The notes under the pieces are model-generated. The model had not been told where the DNA came from. It saw only the letters and a program-made list of their open reading frames with translations, and did not search any database. Below are positions 15,796 to 32,155 of a stretch of 34,748 nucleotides of DNA, in pieces; the stretch's first letter is position 1, and each line of letters starts with the position of its first letter. The position numbers and the translations under genes are program-made. Source of the stretch: Candidatus Zambryskibacteria bacterium RIFOXYC1_FULL_39_10 (GTDB lineage Bacteria > Patescibacteriota > Minisyncoccia > Phycocordibacterales > WO2-35-19); contig MHWW01000011.1 of NCBI GenBank assembly GCA_001824275.1, forward strand, positions 1 through 34,748, written 5' to 3'.

Positions 15796-17895
15796 TTGAA
15801 AAATAAAATGACTAAAAAATTTCTTACATTTGGAATATTGCTTATCGTCCTAACTGGAATTTTACTTCCAAATATTGCGTTTGGGGAAGAGGAACTAGAT
15901 GAATTGGCGCAAATATTGTCTACCGTAAATCCTGTAGCGGCTGTAACCGCTAAAGCATCTGCTGACGGACTTTTTTCACCTGTAGAATATTTTTTTGATG
16001 GTTTTTTTAAGATTATAGGTCATTTTCTAATGACGATTTCCTCTTTTATATTAATAATATCTGGAAAAATATTTGATTCGGTTGTGGAATTTACCGTTAT
16101 TGATATGGGTAAAAATATAGGTGATCCTAAGGGGGTGGGTGGGGGAATCACTGCGGCTTGGGCCACACTGCGAGATATTGCAAATATGTGTTTTATATTC
16201 GTCCTGCTTTTTGCCGCATTCAAAAACATGTTTCAGTATAATATCAACAATTTCGGCGCCACAATAAAAAATATAATTATTGTCGCTTTGCTTATAAACT
16301 TCAGTCTCTTCTTTTCAAAAGTAGTGATCGACGCCTCAAATATAGTCTCGGTGGGTTTTTATAAATCGATAGCAACTGCAAATACAAATACTTACGAACT
16401 ATCGGGAACACTCACTGGAACGAAAGAAAATTTTGGTTTTACTGGAATTTCTGGTGGTTACCTGAGGATGCTAGGGCTTCAAACTTTTTTTGGTGCTGAA
16501 ATTTTAGACAAAGTAAATGACCCGGTCAAAATACTGACGCTTGGAGTTGTCAGTTCAATCTTTATGCTTGTCACTGCAACCATACTTTTAATAGCTGGCA
16601 TAATGTTTGCTGCTCGTTTTATTATTCTTATTTTCTTAATGATTCTCTCACCCCTTGCCCTAATAGCCTATATAATACCGGGGCAAGAAAAACAATTTAA
16701 TAGCTGGAAAGATTCTTTAATCAGCCAGTCATTTTTTGCCCCATTATTTTTTGCTTTGACTTGGGTGGTATTTAAGGTTGGTAGTTCTTTGCTTACCGCT
16801 GTCGATAAAAATTCCACATGGACAGATTTAATCACTAAGGCTGATAGCGGTGCCATAAACTTATTACTCTTTTACATTCTGATAACCGGTTTCTCCATCG
16901 CCGCCCTTGTACTTTCCAAACAAATGGCAACAAGTGGCGCCACCGGCGGAGCTTTCAAAGCTATCAGTGGAGGCGTGGGCACTGCCGCAATTGGTGGCGC
17001 CGCTTTGGCAGGAAGAAATACGATTGGTAGAGCCTCTAGTTTAGTTTCGGAAAAATATAGGGACACATTGTCTAAGAATGCATTGGGTAGGAGCACACTG
17101 TGGTTAGCAAACAAGGGCAAACAGAGCAGTTTTGACGCAAGAGCCGTTGGCGATACCAAACTAATGAAATCTATCGGGGCTGACAAATACACTAACGATA
17201 TGTTGGGTGCTGCCGGAAAAGCAGGTGGTAAGGGTGGATTTGCAAAAGTTATTGAAGAAAAAGCAAAGGCCAAAGCTGCATATGCTAAAGATGTTTATGG
17301 ACAAACAGATTTTGAAAAAGATGAAGCTAAAAAACGCCAAACGGATTACGATATTGAAAAAGCCGGGGAAGAAAAGAAAATTAAACAGAGAAGATTAGAT
17401 AAAGTCGCTGAAAAAATTGCTGACGCAAGAACTCCAGAAGAAACAGAGAAGGCGGAGGCCTATCGAGAATATGTTAATAAAATTAACAAGAAAAATATCT
17501 TTGATGATAAGGAATACTCTGATGAATTTAAAAATAAAGATATTGTTAAAGAATACGAAAAATATTCTAAAGCTGGAGAAAAAAGACAAGAAGAATTTGC
17601 CAAGAGGTTGGATAAGACAGCAAACATACTTACTACCGCAGGCGCAATTGTTGGCGGCGTAGTTGGTGGATTGGCTGGAGGATTGCCTGGTATAGCAATC
17701 GGGAGTGGTGTAGGAGCTGGTTTGGGAAGCACAAACAAAGCTGCATCAAAAAAAATAAGATTGGAATCGAAGGGGCCATCAAAGGAAAAGAAATTAGCTG
17801 ACATTATTTCTAAGGAATTTACCGAAACTACAACCTCAGAAACACCAGCTACTCCACCACCTGCGCCAACTCCCCCAACAACTCCTAGCCCATAA
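15796..17895 (+). CDS. TrbL/VirB6-like polytopic membrane protein with long charged C-terminal tail
   Basis: Multiple TM helices, FAARFIILIFLMILSPLALIAYIIPGQEKQFNSWKDSLISQSFFAPLFFALTW, then Lys/Glu-rich tail; ATG at 15808 is an alternative start. Confidence 0.8.
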   Translation: MKNKMTKKFLTFGILLIVLTGILLPNIAFGEEELDELAQILSTVNPVAAVTAKASADGLFSPVEYFFDGFFKIIGHFLMTISSFILIISGKIFDSVVEFTVIDMGKNIGDPKGVGGGITAAWATLRDIANMCFIFVLLFAAFKNMFQYNINNFGATIKNIIIVALLINFSLFFSKVVIDASNIVSVGFYKSIATANTNTYELSGTLTGTKENFGFTGISGGYLRMLGLQTFFGAEILDKVNDPVKILTLGVVSSIFMLVTATILLIAGIMFAARFIILIFLMILSPLALIAYIIPGQEKQFNSWKDSLISQSFFAPLFFALTWVVFKVGSSLLTAVDKNSTWTDLITKADSGAINLLLFYILITGFSIAALVLSKQMATSGATGGAFKAISGGVGTAAIGGAALAGRNTIGRASSLVSEKYRDTLSKNALGRSTLWLANKGKQSSFDARAVGDTKLMKSIGADKYTNDMLGAAGKAGGKGGFAKVIEEKAKAKAAYAKDVYGQTDFEKDEAKKRQTDYDIEKAGEEKKIKQRRLDKVAEKIADARTPEETEKAEAYREYVNKINKKNIFDDKEYSDEFKNKDIVKEYEKYSKAGEKRQEEFAKRLDKTANILTTAGAIVGGVVGGLAGGLPGIAIGSGVGAGLGSTNKAASKKIRLESKGPSKEKKLADIISKEFTETTTSETPATPPPAPTPPTTPSP

Positions 17896-18431: not shown

Positions 18432-18865
18432 TGTATTAGGGGAAATGTATTATGTATTATGGAAGAAACAAAAAAGATAGAATCGTTTTATGATTTGAAT
18501 GCGTGGAAGGAAAGCCATAAATTAGCAATTATGATATATAAAATTACCAAACAATTTCCAAGGGATGAAATTTTCGGATTAACTTCTCAGATAAGACGAG
18601 CCACAGTCTCTATATCATCAAATATCGCAGAGGGTTTTAGTAGAAACTCACACAAAGAAAAATTAAATTTCTACTCGATAGCACTTGGTTCTCTCACTGA
18701 AACACAGAATCAGCTTTTAATTTCGAGAGATGTTAGTTATATTGGTAGTAATATTTTCAAAAATATCTGGGATCAGACGATTATTGTAAGCAAACTCTGT
18801 AACGGATTGATCAAGAAAATGAGATCTTTTAACCATAATACATAATACTTACCCCATAATTCATT
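18430..18865. mobile_element. Candidate IVS-like element: S23-type ORF bracketed by inverted repeats
   Basis: GTATTATGTATTATGG (18447-18462) and CCATAATACATAATAC (18833-18848) perfect 16-bp IR; imperfect extension through AGGGG/CCCC. Confidence 0.6.
18459..18845 (+). CDS. Four-helix-bundle protein (23S rRNA intervening-sequence protein / S23 family)
   Basis: FYDLNAWKESHKLAIMIYKITKQFPRDEIFGLTSQIRRATVSISSNIAEGFSRNSHKEKLNFYSIALGSLTETQNQLL. Confidence 0.93.
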   Translation: MEETKKIESFYDLNAWKESHKLAIMIYKITKQFPRDEIFGLTSQIRRATVSISSNIAEGFSRNSHKEKLNFYSIALGSLTETQNQLLISRDVSYIGSNIFKNIWDQTIIVSKLCNGLIKKMRSFNHNT

Positions 18866-18869
18866 TTTT

Positions 18870-19295
18870 ATGCGTTTTCAAATACCACAATTTATAGATG
18901 TCGAAGATAAAATATTTGGGCCGCTTACCCTCAAGCAGTTTATTTATGTTGCGGGAGGTATAAGTATTGCTGTAGTCGGAGTAGTATTCTTCGGCCTTTT
19001 CTTTGGACTCCTCCTCGCTTCACCTATTGTGATTTTAGCTTTTGCTTTAGCATTTTATAGAATAAACAACCGCCCTTTCGTTCACACTCTTGAATCCGCT
19101 TTCAAATACGCCACCAAAGATAAGCTTTATATTTGGCGAAAAGATGAGACTGAGAAGCCTGCAGAAGAATCTGCTGGAGGGAAGTATAGCTCGCTTGTAG
19201 TACCAAACTTGTCAGAAAGTAAGCTCAAAGATATGAACTGGGAGCTAGATGTGAAGAAAAAAGAAAATGAAATCTTAGAAAAAAGTAGCAAGTAG
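18870..19295 (+). CDS. PrgI family protein
   Basis: RFQIPQFIDVEDKIFGPLTLKQFIYVAGG, two TMs, ...FYRINNRPFVHTLESAFKYATKDKLYIWRK. Confidence 0.85.
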   Translation: MRFQIPQFIDVEDKIFGPLTLKQFIYVAGGISIAVVGVVFFGLFFGLLLASPIVILAFALAFYRINNRPFVHTLESAFKYATKDKLYIWRKDETEKPAEESAGGKYSSLVVPNLSESKLKDMNWELDVKKKENEILEKSSK

Positions 19296-19320: not shown

Positions 19321-19941
19321 ATGAAAAATGCGACGCAAGAATTTGTGCCAATAGATGATGTGCGAGATGGCATCGTTATATTAAAAGATGGGAGTATGCG
19401 AGGCATCCTCATGGCTTCTTCTATAAACTTTGCCTTAAAATCAGATGATGAGAGGCAGGCGATACTTTTACAGTTTCAAGATTTTTTAAATTCTTTAGAT
19501 TTTTCTATTCAAATATTGGCTCAATCTAGACGACTCGATATCAGGCCTTATATTGCCTTGCTCGAAGGGCGATACAAAGAGCAAACAAACGACTTGATGA
19601 AAATCCAAATTGAACAATATATATCCTTTATTAAGGGTTTTACCGAATCTACCAATATTATGACCAAAAATTTCTTTGTCGTTATCCCTTATGATTCAGC
19701 TATCATATCATCCAAAAGCAGTTTGCCATTTGGTTTGGGCGGTAAAGAAAAAACAAAAGAATCAAAAGAGGAGGATTTTGAAGAAAAGAAAAACCAATTG
19801 GAACAAAGAATGGGGGTGGTAGAGCAGGGGCTCGTGCGGTGCGGCGTCCGAGTAGCAAAATTGGGGACTGACGAGGTGGTCGAGTTGTTTTATAAAATAT
19901 TTAATCCAGGAGAATCGGAAAAACCCATTAAGATACAGTAG
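19321..19941 (+). CDS. TraC/VirB4 N-terminal-domain-like protein
   Basis: FVPIDDVRDGIVILKDGSMRGILMASSINFALKSDDERQAILLQFQDFLNSLDFSIQILAQSRRLDIRPY. Confidence 0.75.
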   Translation: MKNATQEFVPIDDVRDGIVILKDGSMRGILMASSINFALKSDDERQAILLQFQDFLNSLDFSIQILAQSRRLDIRPYIALLEGRYKEQTNDLMKIQIEQYISFIKGFTESTNIMTKNFFVVIPYDSAIISSKSSLPFGLGGKEKTKESKEEDFEEKKNQLEQRMGVVEQGLVRCGVRVAKLGTDEVVELFYKIFNPGESEKPIKIQ

Positions 19942-20036: not shown

Positions 20037-21839
20037 ATGTTTGATTTTTTTACAAAAAAGAAAAAAGAGGAAGCATCAATTTCCATTTTACCAAAAGGAC
20101 TTACCGAAAGTTCCGAATTAGAATTGCGTGATATTTTGGCGCCGAGCGCCCTCAAAGTAAATACCAAAGAGTTAAATTTGGGTGAAAAGGTGGTGCGAAG
20201 TTTTTTCGTCATTTCTTATCCAAGATTTTTAACTGAAGATTGGTTTTCGCCGATTATCAATATGGATAAAATGTTTGATGTTTCTATTTTTATCCACCCA
20301 CTTGAAACCGCCAAAATACTTCGCAGTTTCCAAAAAAAAGTGGCCGAAGTCCAAAGCCAAATCAGAAGCAGGGAAGAGAAGGGTTTGGTGCGTGACCCAA
20401 TGCTTGATACCGCTTATCAAGATTTGGAAAATTTGCGTGACCAACTCCAGCAAGCGCAAGAAAAAATGTTTGAAGTCGGGCTTTATATTTCGGTTTATGC
20501 CGACAACAGCGACGAACTAGACAAAGTGGAGTCTGAGATAAAATCAGTGATGGAATCCAAACTTGTTTATGTCAAACCCGCCCTCTTCCAACAAGAACAG
20601 GGCTTCCGCAGTATTTTACCCATCGCCAAAGACGAGCTCGCTGTTCATTCAAAAATAAATTCTTCACCACTTTCAAGCCTATTTCCATTTATTTCTTTTG
20701 ATCTTACATCTGACAAAGGTATTTTGTACGGCATAAACCGCCACAACTCATCACTCGTTTTGTTTGACCGATTTTCGTTAGAAAACTATAACTCTGTAAC
20801 CTTTGCCAAGGCCGGTGCCGGCAAATCTTACAATATCAAACTCGAAATCCTTAGGACTCTTATGTTTGATACTGAAGTCATCGTGATCGACCCAGAAAAT
20901 GAATATGAATACATGGCCGAAGCGGTAGGTGGGCGATATTTTAATATTTCTCTAAATTCCGATCACCACATCAATCCTTTTGAACTGCCCGTCCCAGCTG
21001 AAGATGAATCAGCCGCGAGTGTCTTACGATCGCAAATAATTAATTTGGTTGGTTTATTTAGAATTATGATGGGTGGCCTATCGGCTGAAGAAGATGCGAT
21101 TATTGACCGAGCCATCACCGAAACTTATGCGCTCAAAGACATCACCGTTGATTCAGATTTTAAAAATGTTGAGCCACCATTACTTTCAGATTTTGAATTG
21201 GTGCTATCAGGTATGGAGGGTGGGGAGTCCCTAGCCCAAAGATTGTCAAAATATACCAAAGGTACTTGGTCAAACTTTATAAACCGCCCTTCAAATATTG
21301 ATATCAACAAAAAGTTTGTAGTTTTCTCTATCAGAGATATGGAGGACGAATTGAAGCCAGTGGCGATGTATATTGTCACCCATTATATTTGGAACGCTAT
21401 CCGTCGGGAACTCAAGAAAAGGTTACTAGTAATTGACGAGGCCTGGTGGATGATGAAATCTGAAGACACCGCTTCGTTCCTCCTCTCTTTAGCAAAAAGA
21501 GGCAGGAAATACTATTTGGGAATGGCGACCATCACTCAAGATGTCGACGACTTTTTGAAGTCTCCTTATGGCACACCGATTATAAGCAACTCCTCTATTC
21601 AAATACTCCTCAAACAATCCCCGACTGTGGTTGATCGCTTGCAGGAGGTATTTAATCTAACAAATGAAGAAAAGTATTTACTTCTTGAATCAGGGGTGGG
21701 GGAGGGCATATTCTTCGCCGGACTAAAGCATGTGGCTATCAAAATAATTTCTTCTTACACCGAGGAGCAAATCATCACCACCGACCCTTCTCAGATTTTA
21801 GCGATGAAGAAGGCAAAAAAGGAAAATAACACCCCCTAA
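20037..21839 (+). CDS. VirB4/TraC-like T4SS ATPase
   Basis: Walker A FAKAGAGKSYNIK, Walker B RLLVIDEAWWMM, VIDPENEYEYMAEAVGG, SNSSIQILLKQSP. Confidence 0.93.
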   Translation: MFDFFTKKKKEEASISILPKGLTESSELELRDILAPSALKVNTKELNLGEKVVRSFFVISYPRFLTEDWFSPIINMDKMFDVSIFIHPLETAKILRSFQKKVAEVQSQIRSREEKGLVRDPMLDTAYQDLENLRDQLQQAQEKMFEVGLYISVYADNSDELDKVESEIKSVMESKLVYVKPALFQQEQGFRSILPIAKDELAVHSKINSSPLSSLFPFISFDLTSDKGILYGINRHNSSLVLFDRFSLENYNSVTFAKAGAGKSYNIKLEILRTLMFDTEVIVIDPENEYEYMAEAVGGRYFNISLNSDHHINPFELPVPAEDESAASVLRSQIINLVGLFRIMMGGLSAEEDAIIDRAITETYALKDITVDSDFKNVEPPLLSDFELVLSGMEGGESLAQRLSKYTKGTWSNFINRPSNIDINKKFVVFSIRDMEDELKPVAMYIVTHYIWNAIRRELKKRLLVIDEAWWMMKSEDTASFLLSLAKRGRKYYLGMATITQDVDDFLKSPYGTPIISNSSIQILLKQSPTVVDRLQEVFNLTNEEKYLLLESGVGEGIFFAGLKHVAIKIISSYTEEQIITTDPSQILAMKKAKKENNTP

Positions 21840-21932: not shown

Positions 21933-22373
21933 ATGGACGAAACCACTCCACAAAATCAAAATACTCGGGAGCCACTCCGAAGACCTGTGAGGCAGATTCC
22001 AGAACAACAGACAGAAAAAAGAGAGAGGATAAAAAAATGGATGGCGGTCTGCCTTATAACAGTTGCTGTATGTGTTGATTTGGCGCAGGCCCTACTGACT
22101 GCAGTAGCGATTGGTGCGGTCCTCGGCCCAGTCATATCAGCCGTGGCTTGGTTTGGATTTTGGGTTTGGTTTATGATTTTGGGCGTTTCTTTTGTTTCTA
22201 ACCCCAAAAAACTATTGTCGATGGGTGGTGCTGGTATAATAGAGATAATTCCAGTCTTTGGCGCCTTGCCTGCCTTCACCGCTGGAGTTGCAGCCACAGT
22301 TTTTATAACAATGGCTGAAGATAAAGGTGGTATAATAAGTAAAGCGGCAGGAGCATTGCAAGGAAAAATATAA
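21933..22373 (+). CDS. Hypothetical polytopic membrane protein
   Basis: Several hydrophobic segments; co-directional in the T4SS-like cluster. Confidence 0.7.
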   Translation: MDETTPQNQNTREPLRRPVRQIPEQQTEKRERIKKWMAVCLITVAVCVDLAQALLTAVAIGAVLGPVISAVAWFGFWVWFMILGVSFVSNPKKLLSMGGAGIIEIIPVFGALPAFTAGVAATVFITMAEDKGGIISKAAGALQGKI

Positions 22374-22375
22374 AA

Positions 22376-23392
22376 ATGTTTAGTAAATATAAATTTTTTT
22401 TAATAATAGGTGCGATTTTAGTGGTTTTGCCTACAATTTCTTTTTTGCCTTGGCAGACAGGTGCCCAAACTATAAATATTCCTTTTGCCCTCTCAAATGA
22501 ACTAAATGTGGCAATATCTCCGACCTATCCTAGCCCAAATGAAAATGTTTTTGTGACCTTAACCCTTTATACCGATGACTTGAACTCGGCCGATATCACT
22601 TGGTACCAAAATGGTAAAAATGTTTTGAGTGGTAAAGGGGAGACAAAATTTAATTTTAAGACGGGCAATATCGGAGAAGAAACAAAAATTGAAATCAAAA
22701 TTACGCTCCTTAGTGGCGTCTCTTTTTCAAAGGATTTTACTTTGAATCCAGCCGGCGTAGATCTAGTTTGGGAAGCAAACTCGTATGTACCGCCATTTTA
22801 TAAAGGTAAAGCCTTGCACTCGAGGCAAGGAGTCATCAAAATTGTCGCCACTCCGGATTTTGTTAAAAATGGCAAAAGAGTTTTGCCTCAAAATTTAGTA
22901 TATGAGTGGTCAAATGATGTCGAAGTTTATCAAAGTCAAAGTGGCTATGGTAAAAATGTCATTGTTTTAAGCGGCTCAATACTTGGTAAAAATGAAAGTA
23001 TAGAAGTTTTGGTGACTGACCCAGTAAATAATCTCGTCGCCCGGAAGTTTATTGATATCGTTCCTGTTAATCCGGAAATAGTATTTTATGAAAATAGTCC
23101 ATATTATGGCCACATTTTTGATTCGGCGATTACCAACTCCTTCAATTTAAAAACTGGCGAGGTGCAAGTTTTGGCCGCACCTTTTTACTTTACTAAAAAC
23201 GATAGTGGTTTGCTAAAATATGAATGGCAATTAAATGGCCAGTCGGTGCCAAACCTTTTTGGCTCTAGAACTGCGGTGTTCAAAAAACCTGAAGATAAAA
23301 CTGGTAGGTCTACAATTTCTTTGCGAGTTGAAAATGCCAATAGGATTTTACAGCAAGCTGACGGCAAATTAACAATAAATTTTGAAGATTAA
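22376..23392 (+). CDS. Hypothetical extracytoplasmic protein with Ig/PKD-like repeats
   Basis: N-terminal TM/signal; repeated beta-domain patterns ADITWYQNGKNVLSGKG, KYEWQLNGQSV. Confidence 0.65.
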   Translation: MFSKYKFFLIIGAILVVLPTISFLPWQTGAQTINIPFALSNELNVAISPTYPSPNENVFVTLTLYTDDLNSADITWYQNGKNVLSGKGETKFNFKTGNIGEETKIEIKITLLSGVSFSKDFTLNPAGVDLVWEANSYVPPFYKGKALHSRQGVIKIVATPDFVKNGKRVLPQNLVYEWSNDVEVYQSQSGYGKNVIVLSGSILGKNESIEVLVTDPVNNLVARKFIDIVPVNPEIVFYENSPYYGHIFDSAITNSFNLKTGEVQVLAAPFYFTKNDSGLLKYEWQLNGQSVPNLFGSRTAVFKKPEDKTGRSTISLRVENANRILQQADGKLTINFED

Positions 23393-23393
23393 T

Positions 23394-24284
23394 ATGACAA
23401 AAAAAATAGGAATATTTATAATACTTGCAACACTTTTATTACCAACGATGGTTGTTTTGGCTCAAGAAACCGATCTTTCCTATACAGTTTTGGCGCCTTT
23501 GCCTGGAGTTGGGGACAGTGACGGCAAAACAACTTTAGAAACATACGTTCCAGCTATTTTTAAACTTGCTATAGGCCTATCAGCAGTCGCGGCGGTTTTG
23601 ATGATTGTTTTAGGCGGTTTCCAATATATTTCATCTGACGCTCTTATGAAAAAGAATGAAGGGAGGGAGAGAATTAAAAATGCGGTGTTTGGTTTAGTTT
23701 TGGTTATCTCGGCTTGGCTCATCCTCAACACCATCAACCCAAACCTTTTAAATATAAATTTAAACATTGATTCAATTAGTACAACTGCTGTTGATGGGGG
23801 AAAATTATTAGCCGATGACGGTAGTGAGGTTTATCCTGGTAAATATTCAGTCAATGTAAATGGAACTCCTGTTTACTACAATGACTGCAATACTTGCACC
23901 TCATTAACATCTTTAGGAATAACAACAAAAAATGCGGGCTCTAATCCGCTGGTAGATGGCGGTTTAGCAGCTAAATTAGCTATTTTTGATGCGGAAATAA
24001 AATCCAGCGGAGTTTCTTGGATTGTAACTGAAGCATATCCACCAACCGTCAACCATAAAGCAGAATGTCACAGATTCGGTACTTGTATTGATGCTAGACC
24101 CACAAATCAAACAGCAGGAAACATAAATGGGTTTATGTCAGCAGCACAAAAAGCTGGATTAAGAGCAGTATATGAAGTTAAAACCCAAGCAGAAAAAGAT
24201 ACCTTAATTAAAAACGGGGTGACAGGTAATATAATTGTCGTATCATGGGTTACTGGCCCTCATTTCTCCGTTTACAAAAATTAA
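23394..24284 (+). CDS. VirB2/TrbC-like pilin N-terminus fused to a possible M15/VanY-like C-terminal domain
   Basis: Signal peptide + two TMs (TTLETYVPAIFKLAIGLSAVAAVLMIVLGGFQYISSDAL...RIKNAVFGLVLVISAWLILNTINP); C-terminal HRFGTCIDA and GPHFSVY motifs. Confidence 0.75.
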   Translation: MTKKIGIFIILATLLLPTMVVLAQETDLSYTVLAPLPGVGDSDGKTTLETYVPAIFKLAIGLSAVAAVLMIVLGGFQYISSDALMKKNEGRERIKNAVFGLVLVISAWLILNTINPNLLNINLNIDSISTTAVDGGKLLADDGSEVYPGKYSVNVNGTPVYYNDCNTCTSLTSLGITTKNAGSNPLVDGGLAAKLAIFDAEIKSSGVSWIVTEAYPPTVNHKAECHRFGTCIDARPTNQTAGNINGFMSAAQKAGLRAVYEVKTQAEKDTLIKNGVTGNIIVVSWVTGPHFSVYKN

Positions 24285-24286
24285 AA

Positions 24287-25546
24287 ATGACAAAGAAAAT
24301 ATTATTAATAATAGGAATACTGATTGTTATCGGAATAGCGGTTTTTATGATTTTCTTTTCTGCACCCGCAACAGAAACAGGGGAGAGTAGAGTGGGATTT
24401 TCAATTAGGGATTATTTACCATTTGGTAACAGTGATAATACTTCAAATAATGCAAGCACTACTGATCAAAACAATAATGGGAATCAGGACGATAATATAG
24501 TAACTACTTTATCAAATCAGCCAATACAAGAGCTCAGGAAGATTTCAAACGAACCTGTAGCAGGTGCAATTGTATTTAATATCGGCACCACCAGCGTAGT
24601 GAGGTTTGTAGAGAAGGGCACTGGTAATGTTTATGAAGCGCGCTCTGATTCAAATCAAATTCTGAGACTCACCAACACCACTATTCCTAAAATTGTCCGA
24701 GCTTTTTGGTTGCCAAGCGGTTCCGGATTTTTGGCCCAAACTTTGATGGCAGAAAATGAAATTATCGAAACCAATTTTGTAAAATTAAACAAAAACCAAG
24801 CCAGCTCCACTGTAGAAAGCCTCACTCCATACAGCACCACTATTGGTAAATTACCAACTGATATAAAAGAAATAACAATCAAGCCAGACGGTTCCAAAAT
24901 TTTTTACTACACTGTGAGTAATTCCGTTTCTAATTGGTATGTCTCTAACCCTGATGGTACGAATAGTAGCTTGGTCGCCTCTAACCCATTAACTGAGTGG
25001 TTACCAAAATGGATTGCAGGAAATGTAGTGATGATGCAAAACAAAGGCAGTTCCAAAAGTCTCGGCTACACCTATTCATTTGATGTCTCTACCAAAAATT
25101 TTAAAAAAGTTGGTACAGGAGCGGCTGGCATTTCTTCCAATCCCAACTCCGACGGCTCTTTGAGTCTTATATCAAATGGCGGTTCTTTGCCTAAATTATT
25201 TTTAGTTGATAATAAAGAAACCACCATAACAGCAGTGAGCGAATACACTTTGGCAGAAAAGTGTGTGTGGTTTAAAGAAAAGAGTCCTAGCGTCCTCTGT
25301 GCCGTGCCATATGACGTACCAAGAGGTGATTACCCTGATGTATGGTACAAAGGGCTCGTTTCAACTTATGACGACATTAAAAGGATTGATTTGACCCTTA
25401 ACACTTCCTCAGATGTCGCTAATCTTTATGGTTTATCTGACGAACAAATTGATGTAGTTGATATAAGCCTCTCTCCAGACGAAACTCACCTCATCTTCCG
25501 CAACAAAATTGATGGGTATTTGTGGCTTTTGAGGATAGAGGAATAA
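24287..25546 (+). CDS. Hypothetical membrane-anchored protein, possible beta-propeller
   Basis: MTKKILLIIGILIVIGIAVFMIFFS anchor, then repeated strand-rich blocks (e.g. ITIKPDGSKIFYYTVS, ISLSPDETHLIFRN). Confidence 0.7.
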   Translation: MTKKILLIIGILIVIGIAVFMIFFSAPATETGESRVGFSIRDYLPFGNSDNTSNNASTTDQNNNGNQDDNIVTTLSNQPIQELRKISNEPVAGAIVFNIGTTSVVRFVEKGTGNVYEARSDSNQILRLTNTTIPKIVRAFWLPSGSGFLAQTLMAENEIIETNFVKLNKNQASSTVESLTPYSTTIGKLPTDIKEITIKPDGSKIFYYTVSNSVSNWYVSNPDGTNSSLVASNPLTEWLPKWIAGNVVMMQNKGSSKSLGYTYSFDVSTKNFKKVGTGAAGISSNPNSDGSLSLISNGGSLPKLFLVDNKETTITAVSEYTLAEKCVWFKEKSPSVLCAVPYDVPRGDYPDVWYKGLVSTYDDIKRIDLTLNTSSDVANLYGLSDEQIDVVDISLSPDETHLIFRNKIDGYLWLLRIEE

Positions 25547-25696
25547 CCTCATCCCGACTGGATAAATCCAGTCTGCCCTCCCCCTAGAAGCAGGGGAAGG
25601 GCTGCATTTCTCCCCTCTCCTGCATCTAGGAGAGGGTCGTTCGCCGTAAGGCGAACGGGGTGAGGTTTTGAAGGAGCGAAGTATTTAGTGAGGTTA
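25544..25696. repeat. Composite palindromic element spanning both convergent stop codons
   Basis: Outer TAACCTCA (25544) / TGAGGTTA (ending 25696); inner hairpins including CCCTCTCCT...AGGAGAGGG and CGTTCGCC-GTAA-GGCGAACG. Confidence 0.85.
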
Positions 25697-26425
25697 AGAA
25701 ACTTTTGCCATCTGTCTCCTTACATAAACATCTTGAGCAATGCCGGCTAGGTTGCTAACCAACCAATAGAGCGCCACAATGGAAGCAATCTTCCAAGATA
25801 TAAAAAATACAACTAATGGCATCGTATACTTCATCTGTTTGGTCATCATTTTAGCAAAATCTTCCTTGCCCACTGGGGTTACAGCAGTGGCGGGCTTGTT
25901 TTTATTATCTATATCTTTAGACGCCAAATGCATCTGCCAGAAGCTTGTGGCTGCGGCCAATAATGCCAAAACAACACTTTTTTGAGATACATCAAACATC
26001 CCCAAGAAAATCATTGATACAGATTCAGGCACTTTTACAAATGAATAGAGTAAATCAGTGTGTATACTTGGCAAACCTGATTGAAAAAATATGTAATAAA
26101 GAGAAAAAATGATTGGAATCTGAATAAGAACAGTCAAAATGCTTGAAAATGGGTTGATTTTGTTAACTCTATAAAACTCCATGGTTTTAACTGCTTGTTC
26201 TTGTTTGTCTTTATATTTATCCTTGATCGCATTCAGTTCTCCTTCTTTCTCTTTCATCCTTGCTTGTGTGACCGTCGCCTTTTTTGAAAGGGGATAGAGG
26301 ACTAACTTTACCAAAAGAGTCAAAATAACTGTTGCAATGCCGGCATCTACCCAACTAATATTCAAAAGAAGGATTAAAATATTATAAAGTGGTGTATATA
26401 TGATCGTTTTGAAAAAAGCTATCAT
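25694..26425 (-). CDS. yidC: Membrane protein insertase YidC/Oxa1
   Basis: YNILILLLNISWVDAGIATVILTLLVKLVLYPLSKKATVTQARMKE, next to rnpA-rpmH. Confidence 0.94.
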   Translation of the reverse strand: MIAFFKTIIYTPLYNILILLLNISWVDAGIATVILTLLVKLVLYPLSKKATVTQARMKEKEGELNAIKDKYKDKQEQAVKTMEFYRVNKINPFSSILTVLIQIPIIFSLYYIFFQSGLPSIHTDLLYSFVKVPESVSMIFLGMFDVSQKSVVLALLAAATSFWQMHLASKDIDNKNKPATAVTPVGKEDFAKMMTKQMKYTMPLVVFFISWKIASIVALYWLVSNLAGIAQDVYVRRQMAKVS

Positions 26426-26437
26426 TATTATTTGTTA

Positions 26438-26779
26438 TTATTTTATTAATCCCGCCTCTTTTAACACTTGTTCAAGATTTTTACTTGTTTCCTCGCTATC
26501 TTTTGGTACTTCTCTGAACGAAAAGACTGCTAATATCTCTGGTTTAATTTCAGAAAGATAGTTTTGGAGTAATCTGTAACCTGTTCGTCTGAGCTTATTT
26601 CTCATTACTGCCTTTTTTGCCACCTTTTTTGATATTGAGAAGCAAAAACGGCTGTTTCTGTTCGTCGGCTCTGTTTTGGACACAAATCTTAACAAAAAAA
26701 GCTTATTTCTAAAGACTTTAGCCTTGTTTTGCAACAAAGAAAACATTTTTCTAGGAATCCTTCTGTTTTGAGGAAGCAT
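26438..26779 (-). CDS. rnpA: Ribonuclease P protein component
   Basis: RFCFSISKKVAKKAVMRNKLRRTGYRLLQ; between yidC and rpmH. Confidence 0.93.
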   Translation of the reverse strand: MLPQNRRIPRKMFSLLQNKAKVFRNKLFLLRFVSKTEPTNRNSRFCFSISKKVAKKAVMRNKLRRTGYRLLQNYLSEIKPEILAVFSFREVPKDSEETSKNLEQVLKEAGLIK

Positions 26780-26786
26780 GGGTAAT

Positions 26787-26921
26787 TTATACCGCTATTT
26801 TTTGGCGACCCTTTCTTCGGCGACTTTTAAGCACTTTTAGCCCGCCCACACTCTTGCTGCGTTTTAAAAAACCGTGAGCCTTTGCTCTTTTTCTTTTTTT
26901 GGGTTGGTATGTGATTGACAT
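26787..26921 (-). CDS. rpmH: 50S ribosomal protein L34 (44 aa, below the ORF-track cutoff)
   Basis: MSITYQPKKRKRAKAHGFLKRSKSVGGLKVLKSRRRKGRQKIAV. Confidence 0.96.
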   Translation of the reverse strand: MSITYQPKKRKRAKAHGFLKRSKSVGGLKVLKSRRRKGRQKIAV

Positions 26922-27053
26922 TTTATTAAATTCTGTGGACCTTATAAATCCTGCCTTGCCAGTAGGTGGATTCTGTTCTATTAATTCTTATTCACAGATT
27001 ATAAACATATTTGATGATAATTACAAGTTCCATTAAAAAAATTTGAATATATA
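26922..27053. other. Probable oriC region (rpmH-dnaA intergenic)
   Basis: rpmH/dnaA flanks, perfect DnaA box TTATTCACA at 26988-26996, AT-rich. Confidence 0.55.
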
Positions 27054-27062
27054 ATGGGACGC

Positions 27063-28406
27063 ATGGACACCAAAGAACTCTGGAACAACATTCTACCAGA
27101 AATAGAATCGTCAGTTTCAAAAGCAAACTTTGCCACTTGGTTTAAAGATACCAAGATCTCCGGTTTTGAAGATGGGGTGGTTTACCTTAGTGTCCCAAAC
27201 ACTTTTGTACAAGAGTGGCTTCTAAAAAAATTTCATCAACTTATCCTGAAACTGCTCAGACAATCTTCGGAATCAATCCATCGACTAGAATATGTAATTA
27301 AAGAAGAGAGTAAACAAAAAAACCAATACATTCCCACCAAAACCTGTTCTCCCACTAGGGAATTGCCTCTTTCTGAACACTATATAAACAAAGACGATAA
27401 TTTAAATCCTCGCTACACATTTGAATCGTTTGTGGTGGGCCCTTTCAACGAGCTTGCCCATGCGGCAGCCCAAGCAGTAATCAAAAACTTAGGCGTCGCC
27501 TATAATCCATTTTTCATATATGGCAACACAGGGCATGGCAAAACTCATTTGATTCAAGCCATCGGTAACGCTGTCAAAGCGGTTGATCCATCAAAGAAAA
27601 TTTTTTACCTTACTTCCGAAAAATTTCAGAATGATTTTGTCTCTTCGATGCTTGCCAACAACATCAATCAGTTTAAAGACAAGTATAGAAAATACGACAT
27701 GCTTATAATGGATGATATCCAGTTTCTCTCCGGTAAAGAAAAAACTCAAGAAGAACTCTTCCATTTGTTTAATACAATGAAAGACAGTAATAAACACATA
27801 GTTTTCTCTAGCGATAAACACCCAAATTTCATTACCGGTTTGGAAGATAGGTTAAAATCAAGATTTGCTGCTGGTATGGTGATTGATATCCCTGCTCCAG
27901 ACCACGAATCAAGAGTGGCTATTATAAAATCAAAATGCTCAAGTATAAATTTGTTTTTAGATGATGAAATCATTGATTATTTGGCTGATTCAATAAAAGG
28001 GAATATTAGAGATTTGGAGGGAGTTATAAACCTAATTGTCTGCCAAACTGAAACCAAAAATAAAACTTTGATTTTAAACGAAGTTAAGGATTTGGTAAAA
28101 AACAGTATAAAACAAAAGAAATTACTTTCTTACAAAGAAGTAGTTAAAATAATCTCTGATTTTTATAAAATTAGTGAAGAAATTATTTATGAAAAAACCC
28201 GAAAGAAAGAAGTTATCAAACCAAGGCAAGTAATAATGTATATTTTGAGAGAAGATTTTTGTATTTCTTACCCATCAATAGGGGAGAAGTTGGGTGGTAG
28301 AGATCATACTACCGTTATCCACTCTTGTGAAAAAATTAAAAAAGATATTCAGGTTGATGAGCTTCTTTCAAAAGAAATACGAGAAATCAGGTCGATGATT
28401 GGTTAA
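27063..28406 (+). CDS. dnaA: Chromosomal replication initiator protein DnaA
   Basis: FIYGNTGHGKTHLIQAIGN, MLIMDDIQFLSGKEKTQEELFHLFN, GGRDHTTVIHSCEKI; ATG at 27063 preferred to 27054. Confidence 0.97.
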   Translation: MDTKELWNNILPEIESSVSKANFATWFKDTKISGFEDGVVYLSVPNTFVQEWLLKKFHQLILKLLRQSSESIHRLEYVIKEESKQKNQYIPTKTCSPTRELPLSEHYINKDDNLNPRYTFESFVVGPFNELAHAAAQAVIKNLGVAYNPFFIYGNTGHGKTHLIQAIGNAVKAVDPSKKIFYLTSEKFQNDFVSSMLANNINQFKDKYRKYDMLIMDDIQFLSGKEKTQEELFHLFNTMKDSNKHIVFSSDKHPNFITGLEDRLKSRFAAGMVIDIPAPDHESRVAIIKSKCSSINLFLDDEIIDYLADSIKGNIRDLEGVINLIVCQTETKNKTLILNEVKDLVKNSIKQKKLLSYKEVVKIISDFYKISEEIIYEKTRKKEVIKPRQVIMYILREDFCISYPSIGEKLGGRDHTTVIHSCEKIKKDIQVDELLSKEIREIRSMIG

Positions 28407-28610
28407 TTAGTTGTTGATAAGATGTTAGTTAGTTGTGATAAAAATGTTTTTAAAAAGTTTATAAGTGTTTAAGATTCAAATTATCATTTTAATATCCACA
28501 TATAATAAATTATTTAATTAAATTAATATGTTTAAAACAAAGGTTAAAAAAAGTAATCCCCAAATTCACCTCTATATATTCTAGGTCCTATTAATTTAAA
28601 TAAAACTAAA

Positions 28611-29711
28611 ATGAAATTAGAATGTAACAAAAACAAAATAGAGTCCGCTATCCAAAAAACAGCTAGATTAGCTAATAAACACCTTACACTCCCAGTTTTG
28701 GCTTGTGTATATTTAGATGCCACAACATCAAACAAACTTATTATAAAAGCTACTAACTTAGATATTGGCCTAGAAGTTGAAGTAAAAATTAAGACTATAG
28801 AAAGTGGAGTAGTAGCAGTCCCAGCAAATGTATTATTGGGAGTATTATCATCAATTAAAGACGATAATCTGGTTATAGAAACAAAAGATAATAATTTAAA
28901 AATAACCGCAAACAAAAATTCAGTTGTTATTAAATGCTTGCCACACGAGGACTTCCCAACTATTCCAAGATTAGAAAATTTAAAATCAATAAAAATTAAA
29001 TCAAATGATTTAATTTTGGGATTTAAATCAGTGTGGTATAGCGCCTCAAACTCAAATATCAAACCCGAACTATCAAGCGTGTATATTTATAAAAATGATA
29101 GTTCATTAGTTTTTGTTTCTACTGATTCATTCCGTTTGGCTGAGAAGAAAATAAACACTAAAGTGCCTGATGATTTTCCTCAAACTCTTATTCCTTATAA
29201 AAATGTCATAGAAATAATTAAGTTGTTTGAAGATTATAAAGATGAGATTGAAGTGATTTTTGATAAAAACCAGATGGCGTTTAAGGTAGACGATATGTAT
29301 TTAGTATCGCGGCTTATTGATGGTTCATTCCCAGATTATAAGCAAATTATTCCCAAGACATACAATACTGCCGCTACTGTCTTAAAAAATGATTTAATAA
29401 ATTCAATCAAAACCTCAAATATTTTTTCAGATGCTCTTAATAAAATAAAATTAAAAGTTGATGTTAAAAATAAGACATTAAACATAGAGTCAAAAAATAA
29501 CGATGTTGGAGAATCCCAGGAATATATAAGCGCCAACACATCAGGTGAAAATGTTGAACTAAACTTCAATAGTAAGTATATAAATGATTGTATGCAATCT
29601 ATTTCATCCGATTCATTAGTTTTGGACTTTGGTGGCGTCGGTAAACCACTTGCTATCAGTGGGGCAACTGATAAAAGTTTTCTTTATATTGTGATGCCTA
29701 TGAATAGGTAA
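28611..29711 (+). CDS. dnaN: DNA polymerase III beta subunit
   Basis: MKLECNKNKIESAIQKTARLANKHLTLPVL, STDSFRLAEKK, LYIVMPMNR C-terminus. Confidence 0.96.
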   Translation: MKLECNKNKIESAIQKTARLANKHLTLPVLACVYLDATTSNKLIIKATNLDIGLEVEVKIKTIESGVVAVPANVLLGVLSSIKDDNLVIETKDNNLKITANKNSVVIKCLPHEDFPTIPRLENLKSIKIKSNDLILGFKSVWYSASNSNIKPELSSVYIYKNDSSLVFVSTDSFRLAEKKINTKVPDDFPQTLIPYKNVIEIIKLFEDYKDEIEVIFDKNQMAFKVDDMYLVSRLIDGSFPDYKQIIPKTYNTAATVLKNDLINSIKTSNIFSDALNKIKLKVDVKNKTLNIESKNNDVGESQEYISANTSGENVELNFNSKYINDCMQSISSDSLVLDFGGVGKPLAISGATDKSFLYIVMPMNR

Positions 29712-29965: not shown

Positions 29966-30047
29966 CTCACCCCCAACCCCTCTCTTACAACAAGAGAGGG
30001 GATTCGAAAACCTCCTCTTAACTATAAGAGGAGGTAGGAGGAGTTAT
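29962..30047. repeat. GC-rich two-hairpin palindromic element spanning both convergent stop codons
   Basis: Outer ATAACTC/GAGTTAT; inner CCCCTCTCTT-ACAAC-AAGAGAGGGG and CCTCCTCTTA-ACTA-TAAGAGGAGG. Confidence 0.88.
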
Positions 30048-32155
30048 GGATTGAAAGGCAGATCTTGCCACAAGTTGTGGTCTTGGGCCCAAATGCGTAC
30101 GCCATACTCCCAGCGCTCAAATTGAGCGTCTCCTGCGGGATTAGAGGGGTACTCTCCTCGCGGATCGTCTTTATTCACCCAGTTTAATATTGAATGAACA
30201 CCACCAATCACTGTTGTGTTGTTATTTTCAAAACTCCCTCCTTGCCAGATACCTTGTAAAACTGGTTTTATTTGAGTTTTGTCTTCAATTAAAGGTTCCT
30301 CAAATTGTTCATCAGGTAATTTAGCCAAAGCCTGATCCATAAAAGCTCGCCACAGTGGTGCCACGATAAAACCCGCAACCTTCTTTTCCATCGGAGTGTT
30401 ATCGTTGTTGCCCGCCCAAGCACCTACAGCAATACTTGGGGTATACCCAACTATCCAAGCATCTTTATAATTGTTGGTCGTACCGGTTTTGACCGCCACA
30501 TCTCTACTTGGAAAATGAAGAGCAGATGTTTGTCCATATGATGGAGCTCTTGCATCGTTATCAGAAAGAATGCTTGTAATTTTTAAAGCAATTTCTTTGT
30601 CCAGCACTTGAGTATTTTTAACCTCTTTTTTTTCTAAGACATCACCATTTTTATTTTTTATTTCTATAACCGAACCAATATTGGTTTTGACTCCATTGTT
30701 GGCAAAAACTCCATAAGCCCCAGTTATTTCGAGGGGAGTGACCTCGCCACCTCCCAAAACAAGAGTTAACCCATAATCACCTTTATTGCTTAATGATTCA
30801 AGACCCATATCTCTTGCTAATCTTATAGATTCACTAAGACCTGCCAAATACAAAACTTTGACCGACGGCACGTTTATAGATTGAGCCAATGCGCTTCGCA
30901 AAGTGATTGGTCCTCTAAAAATACCGTCGTAATTTTCGGGTGAGTAACAACCATTTTCCATTGTTAAATTGTTTGGCGCACAATTGGTAGAAAATTGAGT
31001 TTTTAAATCAAAAAGCACTGTTTCTGGAGTGTAGCCCTTGGTAAATGCTTTTGCATAAACAAATGGTTTGATGGTGGAACCCGGCTGTCTTTTGGCCAAA
31101 GTTACATTAAAAGCACCATCAATCTCTTCATCAAAATAGTCTCTTGAGCCAACCATAGTGAGTATCTCCCCATTTCTTGGATCTATTGCCACCAATGCAG
31201 TATTTTCGGCATTGAAGTTTTTCTTATTTGTTAGAGCGTAATCAAGAGCGATTTTTTCACCAATTGATTGCAAATCATAGTCTAGTGTAGTCGTCACTCG
31301 TAAGCCCCCACTATTGATAGCTTCTTCTCCATATTTATTTTTAATATAATCGATTACATAGAAAACAAAATGAGGGGCTTTGATACTAGAGTCGCCCTTT
31401 GCGACAAAATTAACTTTCTCTAAAATAGCCGAATCGTATTCTTCTTGAGTTATAAATTCACTTCTAAGCATTTCTCTAAGAACAAGATTTTTTCTTTCTT
31501 CCAATCGTTCTTTATTCTTACCATACGGAGAATAGAAAGTGGGTGCTTTAGGCAAAGCGGCCAAATAAGCCGCCTCACTGAGTGATACTTCAGAAGAGGA
31601 CTTACCAAAAAATGCCTGACTTGCTTCCTCAACCCCATAAATTACTCCTCCGTAGGGTATCTCATTTAGATACATTGAAAGTATTTCATCCTTGGGCATC
31701 ACCTGTTCTAATTTGACCGCTATGACCCACTCCTTAAGCTTCCTGGAAATAAGTTTCTCTGAAGTTAGTAATGAATTTTTTACAACTTGTTGGGTAATGG
31801 TTGAGCCCCCCTGAGAAAAGTCTAATGATAAAATATTTACCAAAGTTGCTCTGATAAAAGCTGTTGGTTTGACCCCTATGTGACTATAAAATTCCTTATC
31901 TTCAATGGCGATAGTAGCATTTTTTATATGCCTAGATATTTGTTCAATAGGCACAATGCTCCTCCTTACATCGCCTCCTGTGTCATAGAGCAAAATTTCC
32001 CCAGTTCGGTCGTAGATTTTGGTTGATTCGCTTACCCGTCTTTCCCTAATTGATTCTGAAGTAGGTACTTTAAAAGAACTAACCCAAAAGAGCATTATGG
32101 CGCCTATAACCAAAAAGACTGATATAAAAAGCATTAATAAGTTCTTTTTTAACAT
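30044..32155 (-). CDS. Class A penicillin-binding protein (PBP1A family)
   Basis: ATIAIEDKEFYSHIGVKPTAFIRA, GGSTITQQVVKN, KRQPGSTIKPFVYAKAF, VKTGTTNNYKDAWIVGYTP. Confidence 0.96.
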   Translation of the reverse strand: MLKKNLLMLFISVFLVIGAIMLFWVSSFKVPTSESIRERRVSESTKIYDRTGEILLYDTGGDVRRSIVPIEQISRHIKNATIAIEDKEFYSHIGVKPTAFIRATLVNILSLDFSQGGSTITQQVVKNSLLTSEKLISRKLKEWVIAVKLEQVMPKDEILSMYLNEIPYGGVIYGVEEASQAFFGKSSSEVSLSEAAYLAALPKAPTFYSPYGKNKERLEERKNLVLREMLRSEFITQEEYDSAILEKVNFVAKGDSSIKAPHFVFYVIDYIKNKYGEEAINSGGLRVTTTLDYDLQSIGEKIALDYALTNKKNFNAENTALVAIDPRNGEILTMVGSRDYFDEEIDGAFNVTLAKRQPGSTIKPFVYAKAFTKGYTPETVLFDLKTQFSTNCAPNNLTMENGCYSPENYDGIFRGPITLRSALAQSINVPSVKVLYLAGLSESIRLARDMGLESLSNKGDYGLTLVLGGGEVTPLEITGAYGVFANNGVKTNIGSVIEIKNKNGDVLEKKEVKNTQVLDKEIALKITSILSDNDARAPSYGQTSALHFPSRDVAVKTGTTNNYKDAWIVGYTPSIAVGAWAGNNDNTPMEKKVAGFIVAPLWRAFMDQALAKLPDEQFEEPLIEDKTQIKPVLQGIWQGGSFENNNTTVIGGVHSILNWVNKDDPRGEYPSNPAGDAQFERWEYGVRIWAQDHNLWQDLPFNP

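Follow-up and report, generated by a model that had tools for sequence, protein, structure and literature searches.

A VirB2-like pilin module fused to a predicted Hedgehog/DD-peptidase-fold domain beside virB4 in Patescibacteria

The gene at 23394-24284 on the forward strand fuses a VirB2-like membrane module to a C-terminal domain with a predicted Hedgehog/DD-peptidase fold. It occupies a conserved slot in a T4SS operon, the candidate active site is conserved among homologues, and the C-terminal module has been exchanged between close relatives. We lean, by a modest degree, towards reading the product as a wall-opening T4SS subunit in which a VirB2-like membrane module carries a Hedgehog-type zinc peptidase. 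By the window we mean the whole stretch of DNA analysed, 34,748 nucleotides in length.

The fusion gene and its operon

The open reading frame starts at ATG and encodes 296 amino acids, of which residues 1-125 form a pilin module made up of a signal peptide and a two-TM T4SS_pilin domain. By hydropathy the signal peptide spans approximately residues 1-23, ending between VVLA and QE; the TM stretches, at about 50-78 and 93-117, are separated by the basic loop KKNEGRERIK. PF18895 (T4SS_pilin) matches residues 46-114 with an E-value of 3.8e-12 and 46.6 bits against a cut-off of 26.6, and the layout of that family (signal peptide, two TM helices, small intervening loop) is present. Hydropathy and PF18895 therefore agree with the signal peptide and two-TM pilin layout that an earlier note had read from this sequence, although the TrbC/VirB2 Pfam family itself gave no significant match to the fusion protein (E 0.75). 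The Mbov_0395 pilin-like conjugal transfer family of NCBIfam also matched, below its threshold. Under the positive-inside rule basic loops face the cytoplasm, and for this reason the loop is probably cytoplasmic and everything beyond residue ~118 probably outside. The pilin and peptidase halves are separated by a variable linker (about 121-160), and pLDDT is below 50 over the first 16 modelled residues of this linker. The features of the fusion gene and its surroundings, all on the forward strand, are as follows.

15796..17895 (+): polytopic membrane protein of 699 aa, putatively VirB6-like, judged by its length, its TM content and where it lies; Pfam finds no significant T4SS match
18870..19295 (+): PrgI/VirB3-like protein (PF12666)
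19321..19941 (+): putative TrsD-like partner of VirB4, from weak TraC_F_IV similarity and position
20037..21839 (+): VirB4/TraG-type ATPase (PF19044, E 4e-26)
21933..22373 (+): small membrane protein, conserved in many relatives in the interval from virB4 to the gene for the Ig-like protein
22376..23392 (+): secreted protein of 338 aa with weak Ig-like similarity, directly upstream of the fusion gene
23394..24284 (+): fusion gene, T4SS pilin-like module plus Hedgehog/DD-peptidase-fold domain (ORF, profile, predicted fold)
23394..23462 (+): predicted Sec-type signal peptide, residues 1-23 (hydropathy)
23529..23735 (+): T4SS_pilin domain PF18895, residues 46-114, two TM helices and basic loop (profile, hydropathy)
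23841..24281 (+): C-terminal Hedgehog/DD-peptidase-fold domain, about residues 150-296 (profile, predicted structure, alignment)
24287..25546 (+): downstream gene of 419 aa with an N-terminal TM segment, adjoining the fusion in most loci

With virB4, prgI and other such neighbours, the fusion gene lies inside a T4SS operon. The small membrane protein and the secreted Ig-like protein (21933-23392) are kept in most relatives and are possible unrecognised T4SS parts. Also inside the operon, at 18459-18845 (+), is a four-helix-bundle protein of the 23S rRNA intervening-sequence type (PF05635, E 3.5e-36), with homologues near prgI in loci L238, L239, L250 and L253. The operon abuts an apparent replication-origin region at 25694-29711, in which yidC, rnpA, dnaA and dnaN were recognised by eye; a T4SS beside the replication-origin region has been reported for Patescibacteria (PMC12102498).

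The genome is small (0.74 Mb, 98% complete), and its named relatives, mostly Paceibacteria/Parcubacteria, point to a Patescibacterium. In the window's virB4 operon no PF18895 match other than the fusion was found. On another contig of the same genome, at least seven short pilin-like genes, each with two TM segments, stand in tandem (G000 contig 9, 23675-26150; L152:5619-8316). No T4SS operon match was found in the 14 kb examined there, and this array probably encodes the structural pilins. Neither SLT nor CHAP, the classical VirB1 domains, was found in the genome, and neither matches the fusion protein itself, which is thus not a VirB1 member. Other possible wall hydrolases are an NlpC/P60 protein on contig 5 and a LysM-M23 protein in the window, and the window also encodes a peptidoglycan synthase at 30044-32155.

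Fold of the C-terminal domain

No Pfam family matched the C-terminal domain, the VanY-type M15 families PF02557, PF08291 and PF13539 included. We aligned 33 homologues of this part, mostly 25-45% identical to the window protein, which we refer to as class 1. Searched against the PDB, the 33-sequence profile had significant matches to Hedgehog signalling domains only, the best being Sonic hedgehog (Shh) at E 5.5e-5; a 13-sequence profile likewise found Hedgehog (E 1.4e-4). The profile alignment sets TEAYPP..H...CH..GTC.D...YE of class 1 opposite TEGWDE..H....LHYEGRAVD...YE of Shh. An AlphaFold2 model built from the 33-row alignment has a mean pLDDT of 87 (core 95-98), and in a Foldseek search of the PDB the best 37 matches were all Hedgehog, with 3d1m on top (E 2.9e-4, probability 1.00), followed by the peptidoglycan enzymes MepA, Ply500, VanXY, VanY and LdcB. 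TM-scores are moderate, ~0.45-0.54 across ~98 columns. Profile and predicted structure agree on a Hedgehog/DD-peptidase (LAS) fold, with scores typical of a distant relative.

This supports in part the earlier proposal of an M15/LAS-type, VanY-like peptidase. The LAS-type fold stands, on profile and model; a plain M15/VanY assignment is rejected, since Pfam finds no such match and Hedgehog comes first in both the profile and the fold search of the PDB. Nor is the domain Hedgehog or bacterial Hedgehog (bacHh) proper, because most of the Hedgehog calcium ligands are missing and PF01085 (HH_signal) matches neither the window protein, nor the 13 profile members, nor the rest of the genome. We therefore place it within the Hedgehog/DD-peptidase fold superfamily. 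Two Cys pairs, C165/C168 and C225/C231, are conserved in the domain.

Predicted active site

The zinc ligands of Shh are H141, D148 and H183, its presumed base is E177, and H135 and H181 stack beside the site (PMC6027127, PMC8052667). Profile and direct alignment equate H221 of the fusion protein with Shh H135, H226 with H141, D233 with D148, E261 with E177 and E213 with E127, and the predicted site comprises H221, H226, D233, E261 and H290. All 33 class-1 homologues keep E213, H221, D233 and E261; of these, E261, aligned with Shh E177, is the putative base. Position 226 is H in 30 members and Q in the other three, so that the H-x6-D metal-ligand pair is largely preserved, and position 290 is H in 30/33. 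Among the calcium residues of Shh (E90, E91, D96, E127, D130, D132), the only one with a conserved equivalent in the aligned part is E127 (E213); the equivalents of D130 and D132 are not conserved, and the Hedgehog calcium site is mostly absent from the family.

The candidate third zinc ligand depends on how the tail is aligned. In the window protein and most members the tail reads H290-F-S292, with S at 292 in 25/33; five members have H-x-H and two S-x-H, and more distant relatives have HLHV. Position 292 corresponds to the second His of H-x-H in those distant relatives, in a second C-terminal family described below, and in Shh. H290, within GPHFSVY, may be equivalent to Shh H181 rather than to the ligand H183, in which case the ligand position would be Ser. 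With a two-residue shift of the strand, which lays HFSV on HCSV of Shh, H290 would be the ligand, as in VanX, where the His of an H-F-S motif is a ligand.

Both motifs quoted in the earlier note, HRFGTCID (H226, D233) and GPHFSVY (H290), are present in the protein. Of its two His and one Asp, H226 and D233 align with zinc ligands of Shh; H290 is likewise conserved, in an ambiguous register, with S292 in place of the second His of HxH in most members. A chance motif is rejected given conservation across 33 homologues and the support of the model. The earlier note had named the lack of a LAS fold or of metal ligands as fatal to its reading; the fold is predicted and candidate ligand residues are conserved.

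A conserved slot with an exchangeable C-terminal module

Within the order, 38 of 399 genomes were found to carry a class-1 domain; across the phylum 10 of 342 do, with some matches outside the class. The loci examined contain 34 different class-1 ORFs. A pilin domain was recognised in 30 of them, in L009, L035 and L108 the N-termini are pilin-like or TM-bearing by eye, and the remaining one, L107, is a broken gene. Outside the order, too, class-1 domains are mostly found behind a pilin domain. L246 and L252 have the domain on a pilin-like protein whose N-terminal half has no detectable similarity to that of the window, and no VirB4 match was found in the stretches examined there. A decayed class-1 copy, broken by four stop codons, is present at L107:1432-1782 (-) in genome G202. 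No relative was found among viral contigs.

Comparison of related T4SS loci, a check proposed in the earlier note, revealed a conserved position beside virB4. In 14 of 20 related loci virB4 is followed, after the TM protein where one is present, by the Ig-like protein and then the pilin fusion; the homologue of the 419-aa protein mostly comes next in those 14, and the Ig-like gene is immediately 5' of the fusion in 15 of the 20. An assembly chimaera is rejected, as tens of genomes have the same pilin-plus-domain ORF in an unchanged gene order.

In four relatives of the same genus the pilin half is 60-65% identical and the gene sits in the same slot, while the C-terminal half has no detectable similarity. 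The C-terminal part of these four belongs to a conserved family of its own, class 2, with the sequence pattern C..C..ITGGTE..H..HG...VDL...HWHV and the residue pattern E..H..H(x7)D..HWH. Class 2 is present in 67 of 299 genomes of the order and was not found in the window's own genome. A comparison of the two classes by hhalign gave no match, and class-2 profiles matched nothing in the PDB; an AlphaFold model of class 2 (pLDDT 85) had Hedgehog as its best match, insignificantly (E 0.2, probability 0.82). Class 2 is accordingly rejected as a plain homologue of class 1, although the model suggests that the two may share a common fold. In a VirB4 tree the window groups with three class-2 members of the same genus with support of 100/99; because the branch order inside this group is unresolved, one or two switches of class, in either direction, are possible.

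The earlier note considered a pilin with its own wall-cutting domain to be unusual. In Patescibacteria it is instead a recurrent architecture with several types of wall hydrolase, and a one-off fusion is rejected. Pfam searches of 163 long pilin-like ORFs found SLT (6), VanY (4), NlpC/P60 (2) and M15_4 (2), and Amidase_2, C39_2, M15_3, SLT_3, Glucosaminidase and 3D once each, with some proteins counted twice; because the ORFs were picked by length and partly by class-1 matches, these counts are not frequencies. At L112:274-1737 (+), in genome G488 of the same class, a 487-aa triple fusion joins, from N- to C-terminus, VanY (PF02557, E 3.9e-39), a pilin domain (PF18895, E 8e-4, below the cut-off) and a Hedgehog domain (PF01085, E 1.6e-5, over the cut-off). 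Its Hedgehog-type domain (HYQGLAVD...VESAHTHC) is closer to Shh than is the window protein, and H221, H226, D233 and E261 align with it as they do with Shh. PF18895 was also seen in very large ORFs of 3354 aa (G990 contig 10) and 3090 aa (G899 contig 12), and beside a CARDB domain in a 1239-aa ORF at L219:3375-7091.

Proposed function and alternatives

If the product is indeed a wall-opening subunit, Sec would export it and its signal peptide would then be removed. The two TM helices would span the cytoplasmic membrane, the basic loop on its inner side and the C-terminal domain outside, facing the peptidoglycan. There it could bind metal and cleave stem peptides, at DD- or LD-type bonds, where the T4SS assembles, and so do the job that VirB1 does in other systems. 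The protein might end up as a membrane anchor, or in a filament (perhaps at the tip) of the short pilins whose genes lie elsewhere in the genome, and the wall concerned might be the cell's own or that of a host. The strongest argument for wall cutting as the purpose is that one T4SS membrane module is repeatedly paired with chemically different hydrolases. On the other side, the NlpC/P60 or LysM-M23 proteins could serve the T4SS instead, a regular VirB2-type filament could hardly accommodate a folded domain of ~140 residues that follows the second TM helix, and the third zinc ligand is uncertain, with S292 in most members and Q226 in three.

Two of the alternatives are forms of this best explanation and differ in what the pilin module does. 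The better of them, to which we would give a little less than an even chance, is a membrane-anchored VirB1-like enzyme in which the PF18895 part only anchors the protein and docks it to the T4SS, without ever polymerising, and the enzyme works like the SLT/CHAP proteins that are tethered to the membrane in Gram-positive conjugation systems. The lone PF18895 match in the virB4 operon, with at least seven short pilin-like genes on another contig, fits such an anchor, as do the single fusion gene kept beside virB4 in 14 relatives and the many unrelated kinds of C-terminal domain that are tolerated. Yet a generic TM anchor would not be expected to have the conserved sequence of the T4SS_pilin family, and this module is a complete domain of that kind.

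The other form is more tentative. As a tip or minor pilin, the protein would sit at the tip of the T4SS pilus and cut or grip the wall of a host, and exchange of its enzyme half would reflect differing host walls. In favour of this, a pilin domain is joined to an extracellular enzyme that can be exchanged, members of the phylum are thought to live on other cells, and the enzyme half changes while the locus stays the same; moreover, Southlakia epibionticum requires its T4SS pilin genes for epibiotic growth (PMC10633639). However, a subunit with so bulky a domain would need to be extracted from the membrane, and no sign of export past the membrane was found. In an extended version, which we offer as speculation of much the same standing, the pilin-like subunit would bear an exchangeable wall-cutting cartridge, displayed at the tip of the machine or pilus and matched to the wall of the epibiont's host; the cartridges would be the Hedgehog-type domain, the second LAS-like family, VanY, SLT, amidase and others.

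It is rather unlikely that the domain is a non-catalytic binder, a pseudo-enzyme that has lost a zinc ligand (S292) and binds peptidoglycan or a host surface. HFS does stand in place of HxH in most members, Q226 occurs in three, and catalysis by Hedgehog itself is disputed (PMC6027127). Against this, H221 and the general base E261 are invariant in 33/33, all HFS members included; the HFS motif is itself strongly conserved, with a His at 290 or 292 in nearly every member; and the likeness to the VanX motif would leave a ligand in place. Least probable of all is a precursor from which the C-terminal domain is cut after export, so that an ordinary short pilin remains and the peptidase is released as a secreted enzyme: the linker between the halves is variable, but its alignment contains no conserved cleavage motif.

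Relation to known systems

Taken separately, the components are familiar: the pilin domain, the T4SS and Hedgehog-fold enzymes of bacteria have all been described before. We found no report of a pilin-Hedgehog fusion in the literature, searched mainly in open-access main texts. The VirB2-like pilins of Patescibacteria described in PMC12102498 have the same PF18895 domain, belong to the same phylum and lie beside virB4. These pilins form arrays and most VirB2-bearing Patescibacteria genomes are without VirB1, from which Quinonero-Coronel et al. inferred that no VirB1 is needed (PMC12102498); C-terminal hydrolase fusions are not mentioned in the portions of the main text at hand. A fused hydrolase is an alternative to that inference. 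Hydrolases of the VirB1/PrgK/TrsG type would likely do the same job, local opening of peptidoglycan for the T4SS, but they consist of SLT and/or CHAP domains separate from the pilin, whereas here a LAS-type domain is fused to the pilin module. A conserved pilin-hydrolase fusion beside virB4 would fill the VirB1 gap with a single testable gene, in a phylum where T4SS genes are essential for epibiotic growth in one genetically tested member (PMC10633639).

The bacHh proteins, an M15A subgroup, resemble the fusion in that the fold is the C-terminal part of a larger protein with N-terminal TM segments in some species, and in both bacHh and class 1 the zinc-site His/Asp and the equivalents of H135 and E177 are conserved (PMC6027127, PMC8052667). 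By contrast, bacHh is more than 50% identical to Shh and has all calcium and zinc ligands, whereas class 1 is ~20% identical and is missing most calcium ligands. Class 1 further differs in a ~22-residue insertion before the last strand, the HFS tail, the two Cys pairs and the pilin fusion, and the sections of PMC6027127 and PMC8052667 consulted contained no T4SS link for bacHh. A distant Hedgehog-fold branch tied to an envelope machine would bear on the bacterial background of the Hedgehog domain. VanY, VanX, Ply500 and MepA have the fold class and the HxxxxxxD motif in common with class 1; the structure search placed them after Hedgehog, and the profile search did not recover them. Class 1 has no E-x-x-H base like that of VanX and VanY; its putative base E261 lies in a YE motif, as in Hedgehog.
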